64,000 bases of DNA from Desulfuromonadaceae bacterium (GTDB lineage Bacteria; Desulfobacterota; Desulfuromonadia; Geobacterales; Pseudopelobacteraceae). Below, one piece after another: positions 16,805 through 59,864 of the stretch. The position numbers and the translations under genes were made by a program. The notes beneath the pieces were generated by a model. It saw only the letters and a program-made list of their open reading frames with translations, did not search any database and had not been told where the DNA came from. The stretch covers positions 1 to 64,000 of the forward strand of contig JAQUIG010000002.1 in the NCBI GenBank assembly GCA_028683435.1. Reading direction: 5' to 3'. How positions within the stretch are numbered: position 1 is the stretch's first letter; each line of letters opens with the position of its first letter.

Positions 16805-17092
16805 CTAAGAGCAGGACGAACCATACTCCTGAGAAATGATAAAACCTTCCCCGGAACCGGAGTTGACAAAATCTATCATCTGCCCATCGAGATAGGCTTC
16901 AAGCTTTTTTTCGGCAAGCAGCTCAACACCGTTCAGATTCAACCTGTTATCATTTTCATCCGGCTCATCCAGAGCCAGCCCCAAACGGGGACCGCCTCAA
17001 CCAAAGCCTTCAAACACCACCCGCAGCATCTTGCCGGGGTTCTGGGCCAGAATAGGCTCCAGAGCTGTCTTGGCTGCATCAGTAATTTTCAT
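16805..17092 (-). CDS. HesB/IscA-like selenoprotein (UGA read as selenocysteine)
   Basis: This 95-residue frame is interrupted by one in-frame TGA at codon 32 (16997-16999), within GFG-Sec-GGPRLGLALDEP. The Sec aligns with the first conserved Cys of HesB/IscA proteins, which bind iron or Fe-S clusters. It matches the known family of HesB-like selenoproteins found in Geobacter and relatives. The C-terminus, GEGFIISQEYGSSCS, keeps one Cys near the end. An AAGGAG site sits 7 bases before the ATG at 17092. A SECIS-like hairpin follows the TGA, and selA, selB and tRNA-Sec are all in this window. Standard gene callers would miss or truncate this gene. The role in Fe-S metabolism is inferred from the family. 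Confidence 0.93.
16960..16978 (-). promoter_or_regulatory. Bacterial SECIS element of the HesB-like selenoprotein
   Basis: In the mRNA, 18 bases after the UGA, CUGGCUC pairs with GAGCCGG (7 bp, one U-G pair) around the loop UGGAU. The spacing and a G within the first two loop bases fit the bacterial SECIS rules for SelB binding. Confidence 0.85.
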
Positions 17093-36435: not shown

Positions 36436-37359
36436 TCAAGAGATGCCGGCGCACAGGAATGGCTGAATTTCAAATACGGCAACAACACAGCGAATGAATT
36501 CCTTTACGGCCGGGTCGTTTATCCGCCCATTGTTGGTGATCGCCGTTCGCTGACGTACATGGATAAAACCGGGAACGTGATGTACACGCAAAAGCCCATC
36601 CGAAATCTGTTTTGCCGCAATACTTCGTGAAACAAAGGCAATCCCCCCCCCGTTTACAATTGTCTCCAGGGTCAAACGCAGGTCATCCAGCACCATGGAC
36701 CTGCTGAAGTCCTCAATCTTGTGCCCGCCCTGTGCTAAATTGCATTCCAGTAGATTCCGGGAAGTGCAGCCGACCTTGCGGGCGATCAGACAGTGGCTGA
36801 GCAGCTGCTGGATATCTACCTCCGGTTCCGGCAGGCCCAAAACCGGTGAACTGATAAAAACCAGTTCATCCTGGGGTAGTTCTGTGGCATGAAACCCCGG
36901 AATTTTGAGCTGTTCGCAATGTTCCACCACCGCCAGATCAAACTCATTCTCCAACAGCTCCTTAATTGTCTGATCAATGGAATGAAACATGAAATTCAGA
37001 TCAATATTATGGACATGATGCAGCATGCACTGTTCAATCACTCGGGGCAGGTATGCGACCCCAAAGGTTGGCGTACAGCAGATGGACAAGCGCGATTTTT
37101 GTCCCTGGTGTTTCAGTTCATTGGCCAGTTTGGCCTCAATTTTCAATATCTGTTCAGCCCTCCGAACCACGATAGTGCCCGCTTCAGTTAACACAAGGGC
37201 TGGACCGGACCGGTCAAGCAGCGGTCGATCATAGTGTTCCTCAAGATACTTAATACGCTGGGATATGGCTGACTGGGTCACACACAGCTCAGTTGCAGCA
37301 CGAGAAAAACTCCCAACCTGAGCGGTGACCTGCAGTGTTTTCAGATACTCTGTTCTCAT
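36436..37359 (-). CDS. LysR-family transcriptional regulator
   Basis: This 307-residue regulator has an N-terminal winged helix (MRTEYLKTLQVTAQVGSFSRAATELCVTQSAISQRIKYLEEHY) and a substrate-binding-like effector domain (residues about 90-300). It is divergent from the decaheme cytochrome/porin operon across a 650-base gap and is its most likely local regulator by LysR convention. The effector cannot be deduced. Confidence 0.9.
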   Translation of the reverse strand: MRTEYLKTLQVTAQVGSFSRAATELCVTQSAISQRIKYLEEHYDRPLLDRSGPALVLTEAGTIVVRRAEQILKIEAKLANELKHQGQKSRLSICCTPTFGVAYLPRVIEQCMLHHVHNIDLNFMFHSIDQTIKELLENEFDLAVVEHCEQLKIPGFHATELPQDELVFISSPVLGLPEPEVDIQQLLSHCLIARKVGCTSRNLLECNLAQGGHKIEDFSRSMVLDDLRLTLETIVNGGGIAFVSRSIAAKQISDGLLRVHHVPGFIHVRQRTAITNNGRINDPAVKEFIRCVVAVFEIQPFLCAGIS

Positions 37360-38010
37360 TCAAATATCCCTATATGTATATAGAATATATAAGTATTGCT
37401 AATACGTCTATTAAATTGATTGGTTTTTACTTTTACATTTCTTCGAGTACTATGCCTGCCGGTAGAATACATTGTCAAGATTGTTCGCCACCAAAAAGCA
37501 CCTTCAAACTGTTTCAGTGGGGATAAACCTGGTGCATATGTCCATAAAAAAGCACGTTAAGTTCTTAATCCTGCCATGCCTGCTGTTACAATTACAGTTA
37601 GGAACAGCACTGTGCCGCCACCACCCCTGCCATTCTTTGTATAAGCAAAAAAACAACTTCCATCAGGCATACAGCAAACATCCCATTATCACGAGGCTGA
37701 CCGCTAAACAGACTCGTCCTCAGGTCATCTTATCGGACTCACCACCTGCAGCAAAAACTTTCGACCTTACTGCATCCTATATGGTCGCCATTCGGGCGCA
37801 TCCAGTCCAACACTCAGCATGGCATTATCAACCTTCTGCTTCATGTCCGACACGCGCATCACCCGTATAAAACAGAGCGCTCATAGAATTTACTCCGAAT
37901 GTTTTATTTGTTGCGGGATTATCCAGATACAAGCAAGTCATGAATCCGCTGAATATATTAAAGGTTTGACAGATAAAAATGCAGTTATCACCAGTTTGAA
38001 AGGAGAACAC
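37360..38010 (+). other. Long leader between LysR gene and cytochrome operon; one doubtful small ORF
   Basis: This stretch of 651 bases holds the divergent promoters. One plus-strand frame (ATG 37538 or GTG 37532 to 37870) would encode about 110 residues with a signal-like start (KFLILPCLLLQLQLGTALC), but the rest is low in recognisable pattern and its upstream GGGGA site fits only the GTG. I do not call it a gene. No riboswitch consensus was recognised by eye. The cytochrome frame is open from 37819, but the true start is at 38011. Confidence 0.35.
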
Positions 38011-39099
38011 ATGCGACACACATTGTCCGGCACAAAAGTAGTGCAACTGTTATTGCTCTGCGTACTTATGGCTGTTGTCGGGGCCTGTGCCACCGGCGCC
38101 GTCAGGGAGCGAATGTTGACCCTACCGACTATTGACGGCGCTAGCAACGTAGGAAATGCGAGCTGCGCCGCCTGCCACGAAGAAATAATGGCTCCCTTTG
38201 CCAAAACGGTCCATGGCCGACTGGCAGACTTTGAGGTCATGGGGGGCGAAAAAGGATGCGAATCCTGTCACGGCCCCGGCAGCCTGCATGCAGCAGAAGG
38301 TGATGCAGCCAAGATCCACTCGTTTGGCAAACTGGCTCCAGACCAGGCCTCGGCCATCTGCCTCAAATGCCACAGTGCCGACTCACTTATGGAATGGCAC
38401 GGGAACGAGCACGCCCTTAATGACGTAGCCTGCACCGACTGCCACAAGATCCATCAGGGCGCAAAACCGGTCAAGAAGAGCCTCAAGATGTCCGAACCGG
38501 ATCTCTGCTACAGCTGTCATCAGGAATACCAGGCCAAGGCGAACTTCCCTTCCCATCATCCGATCAAAGAGGGAAAAATGGTCTGCAGCAGTTGCCACGC
38601 AGTGCATGGCTCGACCGGTAAGGGACTGCTGAAAACAGATGAGCGCCCCAACGACCTCTGCTACAACTGCCACGCCCGCCACCAGGGACCATTCGTCTTC
38701 GAACATAGCCCGGTCCAGGAGGATTGCAGCATCTGTCATGACCCGCACGGTACCGTGGCCAACAACCTCCTCAAGCAGAGTGAGCCGTTCCTCTGCCTGC
38801 AGTGCCACGAAAGCCACTTCCATGCCACCAGAACCGGATCAAGCACTAATCCGGGCACTACCGCCTTTGACGGCACCGCGCTAAACGGTGCCACAGCGAC
38901 TGGGCTCCCCACCGCAAGCAACAGTGTCGGTTACACCAATACCCACGGCACCGACGCCTGGGCCCAGGCCTTCGGCACCAAGTGTACCGTCTGCCACACA
39001 AAAGTTCACGGCAGCGACCTTCCATCCCAGACAGCGCCTTCCGTCAGCACGGATGGCACACGCGGATGGCCGGACGGCGCCAAGGGATTGACCCGCTAA
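38011..39099 (+). CDS. Decaheme c-type cytochrome lipoprotein, MtrA/DmsE family
   Basis: This 362-residue protein has an N-terminal hydrophobic signal ending VVGAC, a lipobox, so it is predicted to be lipid-anchored. Ten CxxCH sites follow: CAACH, CESCH, CLKCH, CTDCH, CYSCH, CSSCH, CYNCH, CSICH, CLQCH and CTVCH. This matches the MtrA/DmsE group that sits inside an MtrB-type barrel and moves electrons across the outer membrane. The start at 38011 has an AAGGAG site, while the open frame upstream has none. The C-terminal 80 residues before the last heme are Thr/Ala/Gly-rich. The barrel gene starts 30 bases downstream; no MtrC-type surface cytochrome is present. Confidence 0.9.
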   Translation: MRHTLSGTKVVQLLLLCVLMAVVGACATGAVRERMLTLPTIDGASNVGNASCAACHEEIMAPFAKTVHGRLADFEVMGGEKGCESCHGPGSLHAAEGDAAKIHSFGKLAPDQASAICLKCHSADSLMEWHGNEHALNDVACTDCHKIHQGAKPVKKSLKMSEPDLCYSCHQEYQAKANFPSHHPIKEGKMVCSSCHAVHGSTGKGLLKTDERPNDLCYNCHARHQGPFVFEHSPVQEDCSICHDPHGTVANNLLKQSEPFLCLQCHESHFHATRTGSSTNPGTTAFDGTALNGATATGLPTASNSVGYTNTHGTDAWAQAFGTKCTVCHTKVHGSDLPSQTAPSVSTDGTRGWPDGAKGLTR

Positions 39100-39129: not shown

Positions 39130-41520
39130 ATGATAAAACATAGAACATGGCTGACCGGTATTGCAGTATGTGCCCTACTGGTCCCCTTGTCTGCAGCAGC
39201 AGCCGACGGCGACAAATCGTACTCGGCCACCCTGGAGGCAGGTGCGGCAGCCATCAATACTAATGATGACATCAAGAAGGTCAACGAGTACTCGGTACTG
39301 CGCACCCAAAACGGGGTCAACCCCTACGGCAAGGCGGACCTGAATATTCACCAGAGCGGCCTGGTTTTTGACGGAAGCGTCCGCTACATGGATCCGGTGG
39401 ATCAGGACCATAGCGCCAACCTGGATGTAAAGCGGGTGTTCAGGACCGATTTCAGCTATTCGGTCCTGCAGCATTGGTTGGACCACGACAAGATGCAGTA
39501 CCTTGATGCAGCGGTGCCACCGCCTTCCAGCTATACTGGGACAGCTGCCAACCCCTTGCCGCTGACGCCTCAAAATGTGCCGGCGTTCTGGTATAACCCG
39601 AATCCAGGCACACTGACCTCTGCATATGGTGGTTCCTCGGCAACGGCACCAGCGGGATACACGGCCCAGCAGATCGGCCGCGCCTCGGTATTCGGAGAGG
39701 ACCTTACTCCGGATGCGGTGTTCAAGATAAAGCGTACCGAGTGGACCAGCAAGAGTGATCTCACCATTCCACAACTCCCCAACCTGACCTTCCACTTCAA
39801 GTATCGCAATGAAGACCGGAAAGGTATGGAGCAGTCCATCGGCATGAGCAAGTGCAGTTCCTGCCACGTGACCGGGCAGTCCAGGAACGTCGACGAAAAC
39901 ACTCGCGACATCACGACCGGAGTTACCGGCAGGTTCGGCCTGCTGACTCTCGATTACTCCTTCATGAATCGGGAGTTCAGGGAAAACGCCGCTACGCCGA
40001 CCAGATATTACGATCCGGCGCTTTCACCCGGTGCTGGAGTTCCGGCAACCTATAATAATAATCCAACTGGCTATGCCTTTTTCGATAACCGCCTTTTGTA
40101 CGATTATCGTGATGGACTGTTGCGTTATGACGAAACTCCTGATTCAAAAAAGGACAGCCATATTATCAAGGCCAAGATGGATCTGCCCGGATCCACTTCA
40201 CTCATGGGTAGCTATGTCAGATCAACCGTTGACAGCGGCAAGACCGGAGAGCCAGGCAACTTCAGCTTTAACGGCAACAACGGGGTTACGCTGCATACCA
40301 CTTACGATGCGTATGGCGGTAAACTGACAAGCACCTTCGGAAAAAACCTGACCATCAACCTGCGCGGTCGTGCAGAGCGCCTCAAAAATGACGATGTAGA
40401 CATAAACTTTTCGACTATTGCAAACTCAGGGACACCGACAGGTAACAATTTTATTCCTGCGCCCGATTCTCTGGCAACCAGATATTCTTCACTATCGAGG
40501 GATACCGTCACCGCGGGGATTGATGCAGCCTATCGAATGGCGCTGAGGACGACCCTGCGGTTGGGGTATGACTTCCAACTGCTGGATCGCGAAGATGAGC
40601 ATTTGGGCACCACGAAGACACAAACCGTCAAGGCAAGCATAAACACCAGGGCAACCAAGACCTTGTCAGGACGGGCTACCGTCACCTACAAGGTGATAGA
40701 CGACCCCTACCACAACCCCAATGCGGCGTTGACCGCGTTGACCACCAACACGTTCGGCTCAACTGTCGGTAACGGGGCAACCTACGGCATTTCGCTTTAT
40801 GACGAACGTACCGCCAACCTGACCAATCAGCCCGAAAAAGTTGTTGACGGTGTTTTATCCGGCACTTGGTCCCCTTCACCACGCTATTCGGTCACCGCCA
40901 TGTATCGTGTAAAACGGGAGGAAAACAGCCTCAACAGCTCCTCCTGGGACCAGACGACCCATAGTCCCGGTCTCACCGCCTGGTATGCGCCCGGCAACAA
41001 AGTCAATATAACCCTTTCGTACAACTACCTAAACCAGAGTTCGGGAACAGCCTTTTGCCAAGGATGGTACGATGGCTGAGCTGGCGTAATTCCATCGAGC
41101 CAGTTTGGCTCGACATGCGGCGACTCTAAATTTGAAACTCAAGCACACACCGTAACCGTTACAACAGATGTTACTCCAACAGAAAAAATGAAGCTCTATG
41201 CCAATGTGATGTTCAGTGACGTCACCTCGAAGATCACCGAATTCAATCCGGTAGCCATGGTGACAACTGATGCAGTTATCAATGCACTCTACAACATCAG
41301 TAACCTGGCTTTGTATCCGGAATACTCAGCGATTCACTATCGCCAGGCTGACGTAAACCTCGGCTGCACCTACAACTTTACCCCTGCGCTCTACACCACG
41401 GCGCAGTTAGGTTACCAGGTGTTCGGCGATATCTACACCAGCAGCAGCAATATCCACCCTTACGGCGACCAAACCGGTTCGGTCTGGTCCGGTGCGCTCG
41501 GGATGGGGTACAAATTCTGA
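39130..41520 (+). CDS. MtrB/PioB-type outer-membrane barrel, candidate selenoprotein
   Basis: The frame encodes 796 residues if the TGA at 41077-41079 is read as selenocysteine 650; otherwise it stops at 649. Residues 1-24 are a signal peptide (ending LSAAAADG). Repeated amphipathic strands and the terminal GMGYKF fit an outer-membrane beta-barrel, and pairing with an upstream decaheme protein fits the MtrB/PioB family. The 146 residues after the TGA have no stop, keep barrel-strand character, and end in the canonical aromatic residue. Cys643, Sec650 and Cys663 cluster in FCQGWYDG-Sec-AGV...STCGD. A CxxCH site lies at residues 242-246. A SECIS-like hairpin follows at 41095-41113. A nonsense mutation is the alternative. 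Confidence 0.78.
41095..41113 (+). promoter_or_regulatory. Putative bacterial SECIS element in the porin mRNA
   Basis: Fifteen bases after the in-frame UGA (41077-41079), UCGAGCC pairs perfectly with GGCUCGA (7 bp) around the loop AGUUU. The stem length, the loop distance (23 bases from the UGA) and a G in the first two loop bases agree with the HesB-like element in this window and with bacterial SECIS rules. Confidence 0.75.
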
Positions 41521-41625: not shown

Positions 41626-41813
41626 TTGTATAAAAGCTTCTGTTTTGCGGCACAAACAAGAGCGTGTCAGATTTTCATAGCATAGTCCCATCAAGGATGA
41701 ACGGTAACAACCAATGAGTTAGCCACCCTCCCCTGTGTGACCTGCAGCAGATTTTCCTCATCAGTATTGCATTGTGTGATAATATTCTGACACTTCTTAC
41801 CAAGGAGCAGCGG

Positions 41814-43202
41814 ATGGATTTGATACGAAGTATTCCCAAGGTCGATAAAATACTGACCGAACCGGTCTGTCAGCGCCTATTGAAAGATCACCCGCGACCG
41901 GTGGTTCTGGCAGCGGTGCGACAGGTTCTGGATGAGTTGAGGAAAGCAACACTGGCCGGCAGAGTACAAGCGGCAGATCTCACCCCAACTGCCGTCTGCG
42001 CCGGCATTGAACGATGCCTGGCCGCCGGTGAAGCATTCAGTCTGCGCCGGGTGGTGAACGGCACCGGCGTGGTGATTCATACCAATCTGGGGCGTTCATC
42101 TCTGGCTCCCAGGCTGCGTGAGCATCTCGCCGACATTGCGTTTGGCTATTCAACCCTGGAATATGACCTGGCTGCCGGTGAACGGGGTACCCGCTATGCC
42201 CATGTGGAACAGCTGATCTGCCGGCTTACCGGTGCTGAAGCTGCCTTGGTGGTGAACAACAACGCAGCGGCGGTACTTCTTGTCCTCTCGGCCATGGGCG
42301 CCGGACGCGAGGTGGTTGTTTCGCGTGGCGAACTGGTGGAGATCGGAGGCGCCTTCCGGATTCCCGACGTCATGAAACTGGGGGGGGCGTTGCTGCGTGA
42401 AGTGGGGACGACCAACCGGACCCATCTGCGTGATTACCGGGGCGCCATAACCGACCAGACAGCCATGCTGCTAAAAGTGCATTGCAGTAACTTCGCGGTC
42501 ATCGGCTTTACGGCTGAGGTGACTGTCTCTGAACTGGTCGCACTGGGGAAGGAGTGCGGTGTTCCGGTTGTTGCGGATATCGGGAGTGGTAATCTGGTAG
42601 ACTGGCAAGGTGTGGCGGGCATGAATGAACCACGGGTACAGGAGTATCTTGCCGCCGGTGTGGATCTGGTTACCTTCAGTGGCGACAAGCTTTTGGGAGG
42701 CCCTCAGGCAGGAATCATCGCCGGGCGCGCTGCGGTGATAAACCCGCTGAAAAAGCACCAGTTGCTGCGGGCACTGCGGGTGGATAAACTTACTCTGGCA
42801 GCGTTAGAGGGGACACTGCGGCTGTACCGCGACGAACAGCTGGCCTGGGCAGAAATCCCGACCTTGCGGCTGTTGCGTATGACGGCAGCTGAACTGAAAA
42901 AAAAGGGGCAACAGGCGCTGCGCCGCCTGCGCCGGCAGCTGCCGGATTCAATTACCGCGGAGCTTGTTACAGGGTTTTCCCAAGTCGGCGGCGGTGCCCT
43001 GCCGCTGGCCGAACTGCCGACATGGCTCCTGGCCATCCGATCCGCAGAACATTCAACGCGTGAACTTGAAGAGGGATTACGCCGACAGCCGGTGCCGGTG
43101 ATCGGACGAATTGCCCATGGTGATTTTCTTCTCGACCTGCGGACAGTAGCCGACGATGACTGGCCGGCCGTGGTTGACGCTCTGCGCGCAGTTAGTGTCT
43201 GA
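41814..43202 (+). CDS. selA: L-seryl-tRNA(Sec) selenium transferase
   Basis: This 462-residue PLP enzyme converts Ser-tRNA(Sec) to Sec-tRNA(Sec) using selenophosphate. The PLP lysine lies in TFSGDKLLGGPQAGII (about residue 290), and VVNGTGVVIHTNLGRSSLAP is a family signature. The start is the ATG at 41814 behind AAGGAG, and the N-terminal domain begins MDLIRSIPKVDKIL. It converges on selB, from which it is separated by a bidirectional hairpin. The putative selenoprotein porin lies just upstream. Confidence 0.96.
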   Translation: MDLIRSIPKVDKILTEPVCQRLLKDHPRPVVLAAVRQVLDELRKATLAGRVQAADLTPTAVCAGIERCLAAGEAFSLRRVVNGTGVVIHTNLGRSSLAPRLREHLADIAFGYSTLEYDLAAGERGTRYAHVEQLICRLTGAEAALVVNNNAAAVLLVLSAMGAGREVVVSRGELVEIGGAFRIPDVMKLGGALLREVGTTNRTHLRDYRGAITDQTAMLLKVHCSNFAVIGFTAEVTVSELVALGKECGVPVVADIGSGNLVDWQGVAGMNEPRVQEYLAAGVDLVTFSGDKLLGGPQAGIIAGRAAVINPLKKHQLLRALRVDKLTLAALEGTLRLYRDEQLAWAEIPTLRLLRMTAAELKKKGQQALRRLRRQLPDSITAELVTGFSQVGGGALPLAELPTWLLAIRSAEHSTRELEEGLRRQPVPVIGRIAHGDFLLDLRTVADDDWPAVVDALRAVSV

Positions 43203-43277: not shown

Positions 43278-45188
43278 TTATTTTCTGCGCAGGATCCGCT
43301 TATCACCCAACCGTATGGTCACCTTCTTTGAATCAAAATACTCAAGTACCGGGATCATGAACTTTCGTGACAGGCCGCTTATTTCACGAAATTCGGCAGG
43401 CGATATTTCACCTTTTTCCAGCAGATAATTGGTCAGGATTTCTTCCATTCTTGCGAGTGGTTCCGGCCGATAGAATATGTCGCTCTTTACCCTGACCGCT
43501 TCTCCTGCGCTCGCAAGCAGCGCAAGGTGCTCTACGGCCTGCTTTTCGGGAATCTGCAGTAACTTGCAGATATCATTTAAAAAAGGAGGTTCGTTTCCCC
43601 CCTTTTCGAGCTCAAGCCGGATACGCTGACGGATATCTGTCTCGGCTGTTTCGCCGCCTGCTTTGCGGCCGACCAGCCGAACATATTCCCGCTCAGCAAT
43701 GACTCTCCCCTCCTTTTCAAGGGCTGCCAGACAAGGGGTGAAAAAGCGCCCGTCGCTTCTTGTCGGGATCTTTGTCTTTAACTCCTCCTTGCTGATCCCC
43801 TCTTTGAGTGGATTCTGTGCGAAGTAGCTGTTCATCACCTCAACCAGCAGATCGCACAACGCAGAGAATGATTCACGGCTGAGGTACTTTTTGGGATCCC
43901 GCACAACCTGTACTATTTCTCCTGTCGCCAGCAGATTTGCCAGAGCTGCTTCAAGCCTTCTGGATAAAATACCGCTCCGGGATATAATCTCGGTGTGGGT
44001 GATCCCCGAAAGAAGACTTCCTGACACCATACCGGCAACAATCCCGCTCTCGGTACCGGCAGACAGGTTCCGAAGCAGTTTCAACGCCTCAAGGGAGCGC
44101 CTCCTGCGGCCTGGAGGTGAAGGGTCAAGGATTCTGCCGCCGGCAACGGTAGCAGAAGGGGATGACGTACGGAGAACAAAAGGATCCCCGTTAAGTAGCA
44201 GTACGGGACGTGCAAGCCGCAACTGGGCATACGCGCTTTCACCCGGGGCAAGAGCGGTTCTGTCAAACAGTATCACCGTGGCAGCAACTTCATAGGTAGA
44301 CGAGTGGAGCCGCAACCCCGAACGGTGCTTCAAACTGCGCGGGGCCGAGGCAAGATGATTCAGGTACACATCAACGATCCTGGTTGTGCGATAGATCCCT
44401 TTAGGGACAACAACGTCACCGCGCCGAACCTGGTAATGATCGACACCCTGCAGATTAAGAGCCAGCCGTGAGCCGGCCTCACCCGTTTCAACCTTCGCGC
44501 CATGTGCCTGTATGCCGCGTATCCTGCAGGGTAGCGCAGACGGCAGAATCTCTGCTTCATCCCCCAGCGAAACCGTACCCGACAGGAGTGTGCCGGTTAC
44601 AACCGTACCGAAGCCAGCGAGAGTAAAAACCCTGTCCACAGGTAAGCGATAAGGCCCCTCGCTCCGTTTTGGCTCCAGACCACAGGCGATCAGGCCGAGT
44701 TCATTTCTCAGTAGTTCAATACCGCTACCGGTTTTGGAGGAAACAGGTATGACAGGGGCTTCTTCGAGGAAACTGCCGGCCAGGAATTCGCGTACCTCCT
44801 CAACAACAAGATCCAGCCAGTCCGGATCAACCAGGTCGCTCTTGGTCAGGGCTACCAGTCCCTTTCTTACGCCGAGAAGTTGACATATTTCCAGATGCTC
44901 ACGTGTCTGCGGCATCACACCTTCGTCTGCGGCAATCACCAGCATAACCAGGTCCATCCCGCCTACCCCTGCGACCATGGTCCGTACGAACCTTTCATGA
45001 CCAGGAACATCTACAATTCCGAAATGTATTCCGCCAGGGAGGTCAAGACCGGCAAAGCCAAGTTCTATGGTGATGCCGCGGGCTTTTTCCTCAGGGAGGC
45101 AGTCAGTATCAATGCCTGTCAATGATTTTACAAGAGAGGTCTTGCCGTGATCTATATGGCCTGCAGTGCCGAGAATGAGGTTTTTCAT
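43278..45188 (-). CDS. selB: Selenocysteine-specific elongation factor
   Basis: This 636-residue factor delivers Sec-tRNA(Sec) to UGA codons marked by a SECIS hairpin. The GTPase domain has [31 protein letters not shown] and a TKSD motif. EF-Tu-like domains II and III follow, and the C-terminal third is made of winged helices (for example [23 protein letters not shown]) that bind the SECIS. Length matches the family (610-640). The copy of the tRNA-Sec 3' end lies 50 bases upstream of its start, consistent with an ancestral selC-selB unit. Confidence 0.95.
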
Positions 45189-59434: not shown

Positions 59435-59532
59435 TGGCGGAAGCACATGGGAATCGAACCCACCGGGGAGATTTCTCATCCCCCCCACCGGTTTTGAAGA
59501 CCGGGCGGCCCACCAGCGGCCGAAGTGCTTCC
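59435..59532 (-). tRNA. selC: tRNA-Sec (anticodon UCA)
   Basis: This is a 98-base tRNA with an 8-bp acceptor stem (GGAAGCAC/GTGCTTCC), a long variable arm and encoded CCA. The anticodon stem frames CTTCAAA, giving UCA, which reads UGA. It is the tRNA used by SelA and SelB. Its 3' end is duplicated near selB at 45238. Confidence 0.96.
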
Positions 59533-59684: not shown

Positions 59685-59864
59685 ATGACTGAAATTCTGA
59701 TTATGTTAGCAATAGTTGTCGCCTGGTTTGTGTTGCAAAAATTTATCTTGCCGGCTATTGGGGTTAGCACATGAATGTCAAACTCTTGTGACCTCGGGGA
59801 CCGAGGTACAAAGAAAAAAAACTCAAAGATGAGTAATGGCAAGCAAAATAAGCCCAAACCATGA
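59685..59864 (+). CDS. Small single-pass membrane protein, candidate selenoprotein
   Basis: This 59-residue frame contains an in-frame TGA at 59772-59774 (codon 30), read here as selenocysteine. A GAGGTGG site precedes the ATG at 59685. One transmembrane segment (about residues 4-27, ILIMLAIVVAWFVLQKFILP) is followed immediately by GVST-Sec-MSNSC, so Sec30 and Cys35 are close together just past the membrane. A Lys-rich tail follows, which by the positive-inside rule suggests the Sec/Cys pair faces the cytoplasm. A SECIS-like hairpin begins 16 bases after the TGA. It lies 150 bases from tRNA-Sec. Without readthrough the product is 29 residues. I do not recognise a function. Confidence 0.78.
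59791..59807 (+). promoter_or_regulatory. Putative bacterial SECIS element of the small selenoprotein
   Basis: ACCUCGG (59791-59797) pairs with CCGAGGU (59801-59807) around GGA; a 6-bp form has the loop GGGAC. The loop is 23-24 bases from the UGA, with G in its first positions, as in the other two SECIS-like elements of this window. Confidence 0.75.

Follow-up and report, generated by a model that had tools for sequence, protein, structure and literature searches.

An outer-membrane barrel gene of the MtrB type very probably uses an in-frame TGA codon to encode selenocysteine (Sec). The gene belongs to the GSU2204 family and lies in a stretch of 64,000 nucleotides (nt) from a Desulfuromonadaceae bacterium (contig JAQUIG010000002.1 of assembly GCA_028683435.1; hereafter, the window), at positions 39130..41520 of the plus strand. 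Its open reading frame (ORF) begins with the ATG at 39130, runs for 649 codons to the TGA (codon 650, 41077..41079), continues for 146 codons (41080..41517) to a C-terminal Phe in the sequence YKF, and closes with a second TGA at 41518-41520, yielding a protein of 796 residues if the internal TGA is read through. An original prediction had described this single in-frame TGA and the frame behind it, the flanking residues FCQGWYDG before and AGV after, and Cys663 13 residues on, all of which agree with the sequence. Its central proposal, a candidate selenoprotein, is now strongly supported by a conserved TGA, aligned Cys homologs, the downstream frame, a covarying hairpin, and, among the 75 carrier genomes, the presence of tRNA-Sec or SelA in 73.

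Aligning homologs at the TGA position, as the original prediction had proposed, reveals TGA or a Cys codon at the site in every locus scored. Loci were scored if a glycine stood just before the site and the site itself held a stop or Cys; profile matches were present in all 107 loci, 91 were scored, and 85 remained after six same-gene duplicates were dropped. Seventy-seven of these carry TGA, eight carry TGC or TGT, and none carries TAA or TAG. Some of the 85 loci are still close relatives, and the 77 TGA loci represent 67 distinct 40-mers behind the TGA. Among the 16 unscored loci, the contig ends before the site in L008 and its duplicate L022, L009, L064 and L097; the match to L101 stops at profile position 603; and the match stops before the site in the distant barrels L004, L080, L081, L083, L085 and L086. 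The remaining four (L077, L082, L084 and L087) extend into the site region, where Sec and Cys are both absent, and L127 makes a fifth such distant relative. Genome matches (106 of 277 and 68 of 395), many of them weak or to other barrels, were evaluated only for extracted loci, and a separate scan of genome contigs gave two loci only. The family is patchy, such that 35 of the 36 congeners besides the window's own genome gave no match in a protein search of 58 genomes.

The same site marks the end of nearly all matching database proteins. A search of 5.8 billion predicted proteins, with the best 7993 candidates scored, returned 96 matches including the window's own. In 94 of them, reaching down to 28% identity (P0097), the last residue is the glycine that aligns immediately ahead of the TGA; P0088 and P0092, the two exceptions, end well before the site. 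When residues 590-796 were used as the query, each of the 21 matches covered solely the part up to residue 649.

The Cys-type genes are relatives of a gene from Desulfuromonas acetoxidans (P0102), which, like its kin, aligns without gaps around the site and scores 431 bits on the family model NF041027, above its cut-off. Pfam matched neither P0102 nor P0109, another Cys form. All eight Cys loci reside in genomes that also carry a TGA copy. In a quick maximum-likelihood tree of 81 members, a single change separates Cys from Sec (100 in the Shimodaira-Hasegawa-like approximate likelihood-ratio test), with a midpoint root and a warning of long branches. This tree and the conservation counts below use the 81 of 85 loci in which 400 or more residues precede the site.

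The frame behind the TGA is under purifying protein selection. Among 217 unsaturated pairs of TGA loci with 60-97% identity in this portion, the ratio of nonsynonymous to synonymous substitution rates (dN/dS) has a median of 0.13 and a maximum of 0.36, compared with 0.17 over the 300 codons that precede it. In the window's gene, the post-TGA values are 0.13 against L007 and 0.20 against L002. Furthermore, the terminal Phe is retained in 81 of the 84 loci whose end is in view, the exceptions being L075, L076 and L078.

A bacterial selenocysteine insertion sequence (SECIS) is a hairpin just behind the UGA with a G among the first two loop bases. In the window, a SECIS-like hairpin at 41095..41113 (plus strand) has the 7-base-pair (bp) stem TCGAGCC/GGCTCGA and the 5-base loop AGTTT (AGUUU in RNA), whose second base is G. 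Its first base is the 16th behind the TGA, which leaves the 15-base gap that had been reported for it. Taken by itself the hairpin is suggestive and not significant: its z score is -1.76, 12 of 200 shuffled sequences are equally stable, and synonymous recoding gives a p value of 0.06, or 0.12 in an overlapping segment.

Across the 77 TGA loci, the signal is significant, and the hairpin is under selection at the RNA level. In a control that works gene by gene, with synonymous codons redrawn under an unchanged protein sequence, codons 2-14 after the TGA fold better than their recoded versions (mean z -2.26), with p ≤ 0.05 in 55 of 77 loci. Seven other segments reaching to codon 103 have mean z values of -0.4 to +0.6, between 0 and 11 loci in each reaching p ≤ 0.05, and the same control detects no folding excess at the same place in the Cys loci (z 0.11, one of eight). 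Stems of 5 bp or longer that enclose a 5-nt loop are found at an offset of exactly 22 nt from the TGA in 59 of 77 TGA loci, at 21 nt in six, and at any other offset from 8 to 279 in at most five. Covariation is evident at the fifth pair of the stem, which among the 67 unique sequences is CG in 34, GC in 14, AT in 10 and TA in four, with five others. The shuffle control takes no account of relatedness. Two loci, L023 and L024, carry about ten additional residues soon after Sec. The hairpin loop of L023 still lies 23 nt after the TGA although the overlying protein sequence differs, and the predicted fold of L024 is shifted.

The machinery for Sec insertion is encoded in the window by selA, selB and a tRNA-Sec gene. 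The selA gene (41814..43202, plus strand) scores 608 bits on TIGR00474 against a cut-off of 267.9, its ORF spanning 41772-43202 with the first ATG at 41814; selB (43278..45188, minus strand) scores 355 bits on TIGR00475 against 242. The tRNA-Sec gene, 18 kb on at 59439..59532 (minus strand), scores 79.6 bits on RF01852 against 47 and is assigned a tca anticodon by ARAGORN. The claim that selA and selB start 0.3-2 kb downstream of the barrel gene applies to selA, at about 0.3 kb; selB lies on the opposite strand and starts about 3.7 kb beyond the end of the barrel gene, the shorter distance of about 1.8 kb being that to its 3′ end. Among the 75 genomes that carry TGA loci, tRNA-Sec exceeds the family cut-off in 63, three of them borderline (48-50 bits). 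Thirteen of the 15 carriers that lack a strong tRNA-Sec encode SelA above its cut-off, and a repeat tRNA search of these 15 genomes gave borderline matches only (48-50 bits), in four.

Could the TGA instead be a true stop codon, a sequencing error or the mark of a pseudogene, with the protein ending at residue 649 or carrying another residue at 650? That 94 of 96 database proteins end there might seem to favor this explanation, though gene callers end a protein at any TGA. A stop is contradicted by 77 TGA loci with no TAA or TAG among the scored sites, by purifying selection and a conserved terminal Phe behind the codon, and by a barrel that would be short of its last five strands; a sequencing error is rejected because it would not recur in 77 loci. 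We therefore consider a stop or error excluded by the recurrent TGA, the selected downstream frame and the structural match to MtrB described below, and give it hardly any weight. Reading of the TGA as an amino acid other than Sec is unlikely in view of the Cys counterpart and the hairpin.

The protein is predicted to form a complete outer-membrane barrel when all 796 residues are included. NF041027, named "GSU2204 family CXXCH-containing (seleno)protein", matches residues 12-649 with 644.4 bits against a cut-off of 350 (profile positions 2-580 of 580), and this model ends one residue before the TGA. The original assignment to an MtrB/PioB-type barrel holds for Pfam PF11854 (MtrB_PioB), which matches residues 46-520 with 39.2 bits against a gathering cut-off of 23, and for the predicted fold, which matches the MtrB chain 6R2Q_B along the length of the barrel and through residue 796. 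By sequence it does not extend to TIGR03509 (MtrB/PioB), where the score of 22.8 bits is far below the curated cut-off of 240.05; a search for sequence relatives in the PDB gave one chance-level match (E 0.097). The models predict a 26-strand barrel like that of the solved MtrB, in which the 146 codons behind the TGA supply the last five strands and the C-terminal Phe. With its neighboring decaheme cytochrome, the protein is very probably the barrel of an electron conduit.

The barrel C-terminus is as a general rule periplasmic, and strands can be counted back from it. With membrane sides read in this manner from strand alternation, rather than from coordinates, both models place the Sec loop (residues 645-661) at the extracellular end, together with the loop (240-246) that contains the barrel's sole CXXCH heme c motif (residues 242-246, 39853..39867, plus strand) and the HxxxH motif (His115 and His119, 39472..39486, plus strand) at the end of predicted strand 104-118. 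Extracellular placement of Sec650 is probable. Among 81 members, the invariant Cys and His residues are His115, Cys242, Cys245 and His246, and His119 and Cys643 are present in 70 and 64, respectively. Gly649 and Sec or Cys at position 650 are also universal, because the loci were chosen by those residues.

By analogy with MtrA in MtrB, the decaheme cytochrome would thread the GSU2204-family barrel and carry electrons across the membrane. The barrel mouth would add an eleventh heme c and a selenolate as an outward-facing redox or metal-contacting site, which may partly substitute for the extracellular cytochrome MtrC. An outward redox or metal role is favored because Sec is the one chalcogen kept at this place and because no MtrC-like extracellular cytochrome gene, nor any second multiheme gene, is seen beside the window's pair. 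TIGR03507 (MtrC) has no match in the window's own genome, and no control genome passed that cut-off either. As a whole, the combination of Sec650, a full barrel around the decaheme cytochrome and an outward redox or metal site is the best explanation, and we regard it as reasonably likely. The narrower proposal that Sec650 is the outward redox site of the conduit is tentative and somewhat short of an even chance. We are more doubtful still of its broadest form, in which a two-gene conduit without MtrC operates across much of this bacterial phylum and uses Sec650 and the eleventh heme at the mouth as its terminal redox site.

Several observations weigh against this overall explanation. Two carrier genomes have neither a strong tRNA-Sec nor SelA, their drafts being 84% and 81% complete. 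Three of the 77 TGA loci (L019, L046 and L063) carry one extra upstream in-frame TAG or TAA, and in another, the fragment L078, the upstream part is out of frame. One of the eight Cys loci, L079 (genome G321), carries an in-frame TGA 90 codons upstream of the site in place of the Arg codon of its relatives; this copy is likely broken or affected by a sequence error. For the hairpin, the two outermost pairs of the stem can form in just 41 and 46 of the 67 unique sequences, a looser count finds a 6-bp stem in six of eight Cys loci as well, yet without the selection signal, and Rfam gives no match up to an E value of 10. The models give low confidence to the Sec loop (644-663) and the CXXCH loop, and no more than about ten of the 71 alignment rows behind the model of the window's barrel run past the TGA, so that proximity of Sec to any heme is conjectural. 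These two loops are 14 of 26 strands apart, on roughly opposite walls, and so need not meet. The heme motif does not require Sec, since L077, L087 and L127 retain a single CXXCH although Sec and Cys are both absent from the site in these relatives; L080 and L083 also keep CXXCH and are unaligned at the site. Finally, no peptide or 75Se evidence for Sec650 was found. As a separate observation, the full-length relative L127 (776 amino acids) lies on a contig of genome G288 about 2 kb from the broken L078, which retains the TGA and hairpin.

If Sec is inserted at codon 650, it could serve purposes other than conduction. A protective or structural role off the electron path, through peroxide scavenging or a selenenyl-sulfide with a nearby Cys, is a less probable reading to which we allow perhaps a minor share. 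Of the 81 members, 64 have Cys643, seven residues before the site, and many members have Cys663 or a comparable Cys, making a local selenenyl-sulfide possible for part of the family. Against such a bond, none of the Cys residues around Sec is invariant (17 of the 81 are without Cys643, and whole clades lack the later Cys), and the window's protein has no CxxU or UxxC motif. A family-wide selenenyl-sulfide with Cys643 or Cys663 is rejected on the ground that both residues vary. Slightly less probable again is a surface site that would bind and reduce metals or metalloids (for example, selenite, tellurite or a soluble metal) using electrons from the decaheme cytochrome. The predicted outer placement of Sec650 and the lack of a second multiheme gene beside the window's pair are consistent with such a site, as is the rise of GSU2203 and GSU2204 transcripts with hematite and magnetite (PMC4070692); the transcript table in that paper, however, spans many cytochromes together. 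We consider it improbable that Sec650 serves as an axial ligand and gives the mouth of the barrel a c-type heme ligated by selenolate. In line with this reading, the four invariant Cys and His residues and position 650 are all predicted at the outer end, but the CXXCH heme would need no second ligand other than His115, the two loops are roughly opposite by strand count, and some distant relatives have CXXCH with neither Sec nor Cys.

The gene pair itself is consistently organized. As the original prediction had stated, the barrel gene adjoins a decaheme cytochrome gene, which lies directly upstream at 38008..39099 (plus strand), contains ten CXXCH motifs, and belongs to the GSU2203 family (NF041028, decahem_GSU2203; 457 bits against 325). 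Its longest ORF starts at 37819, and the Met at 38008 begins a lipoprotein-like signal that, by eye, ends in VVGAC. The decaheme cytochrome is the upstream neighbor of the barrel in 23 of 23 neighborhoods, each barrel ORF with one CXXCH; this set includes L005 and L006, contigs of genomes whose gene is also counted elsewhere, and three Cys-type or other second copies. A divergent LysR-type regulator (36436..37359, minus strand; NCBIfam NF041036, "multiheme cytochrome-associated LysR family", 393 bits against 210) lies upstream in the window, and ten of the 23 neighborhoods have a divergent LysR match. Genes for selA and selB closely follow the barrel in the window and L006. In L120 (genome G591), the cytochrome gene of the Cys-type copy is directly preceded by a selB-like gene (31% identical), reminiscent of the sel genes around the window's pair. 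No match to selA or selB was found in the remaining 20 neighborhoods, several of which were ended early by contig ends; a direct connection of the two genes with the barrel operon is accordingly rejected, and their proximity is probably local.

Two other possible selenoprotein genes were noted in the window. A HesB/IscA-like candidate (16808-17092, minus strand) contains GFGUGGPRLGLAL and a 7-bp hairpin with the 5-nt loop UGGAU, and scores under the NCBIfam cut-offs and over that of Pfam PF01521. The spacing of its hairpin had been said to equal that of the barrel gene; it is 18 nt after the UGA, not 15. Beside the tRNA-Sec gene, a small ORF (59685-59858, plus strand) has a hydrophobic start, an in-frame TGA in the context GVSTUMSNSC and a stable 7-bp hairpin behind it, with no Pfam or NCBIfam match; it is possibly a tiny membrane selenoprotein or a product of chance.

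Sec is costly and is usually reserved for catalysis. Among the loci scored across the window's phylum, bar one Cys clade and a few distant relatives, it is retained at one position, with no invariant Cys nearby, in likely conduit barrels. The original prediction was right about the likely Sec, and the point of interest is the role of selenium on the conduit wall. If the proposed mechanism is true, the barrel wall would itself be a redox enzyme and a two-gene conduit could work without MtrC. The 94 truncated database entries lack about the last fifth of the protein, equal to five predicted strands, and structure predictions, fusions or knockouts designed from them could mislead. The natural Cys paralogs, all eight accompanied by a TGA copy in the same genome, offer a ready comparison for the contribution of selenium at the cell surface.

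The selenoprotein family itself has already been catalogued. The original prediction knew of no described Sec in this porin family; NF041027 carries "(seleno)protein" in its name, and tables in two reviews list the GSU2204 family as a predicted selenoprotein with no Sec motif stated (PMC9312934, 2022; PMC13188914, 2026). These table entries give no function, Cys homolog, SECIS test or structure. The second table cites Zhang and Gladyshev 2008 (PMC2398784), in whose main text the terms MtrB, PioB, cytochrome and outer membrane are absent and Geobacter has one unrelated mention. The present analysis adds the comparison with Cys homologs, a test of the SECIS-like hairpin, the predicted position of Sec in the barrel, and the invariance of His115, Cys242, Cys245 and His246. 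No functional study of a GSU2204-family barrel was found in the literature searched, and a report on conduit mutants of G. sulfurreducens contains neither "GSU22" nor "mtrB" in its text (PMC6148476). Transcripts of GSU2203 and GSU2204 increase 1.5- to 2.7-fold with hematite or magnetite in Geobacter (PMC4070692). In Desulfobacterota, mtrAB are clustered and the location of mtrC varies, according to an article whose main text does not include the word selenocysteine (PMC12133095).

Compared with known systems, the window gene is a member of NF041027 and shares the CXXCH and the NF041028 neighbor, with no difference of substance. MtrB of the Shewanella MtrCAB complex (6R2Q chain B) is only 13% identical to the window's barrel, which falls below the TIGR03509 cut-off. 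Unlike MtrB, the window's barrel carries CXXCH, HxxxH and a likely Sec, and no MtrC-like gene is seen beside it. The porin-like ExtI of G. sulfurreducens is similarly an outer-membrane channel in a cytochrome cluster and adjoins a predicted selenoprotein gene, but it is reported to have no significant homology to MtrB and is not called a selenoprotein in the account given there (PMC5877670). ExtKL (GSU2937-GSU2936) resembles the window's protein in being a predicted Geobacter selenoprotein with a conserved in-frame TGA in an electron-transfer cluster, but is described as a five-heme cytochrome rather than a barrel (PMC1914089, PMC5877670).
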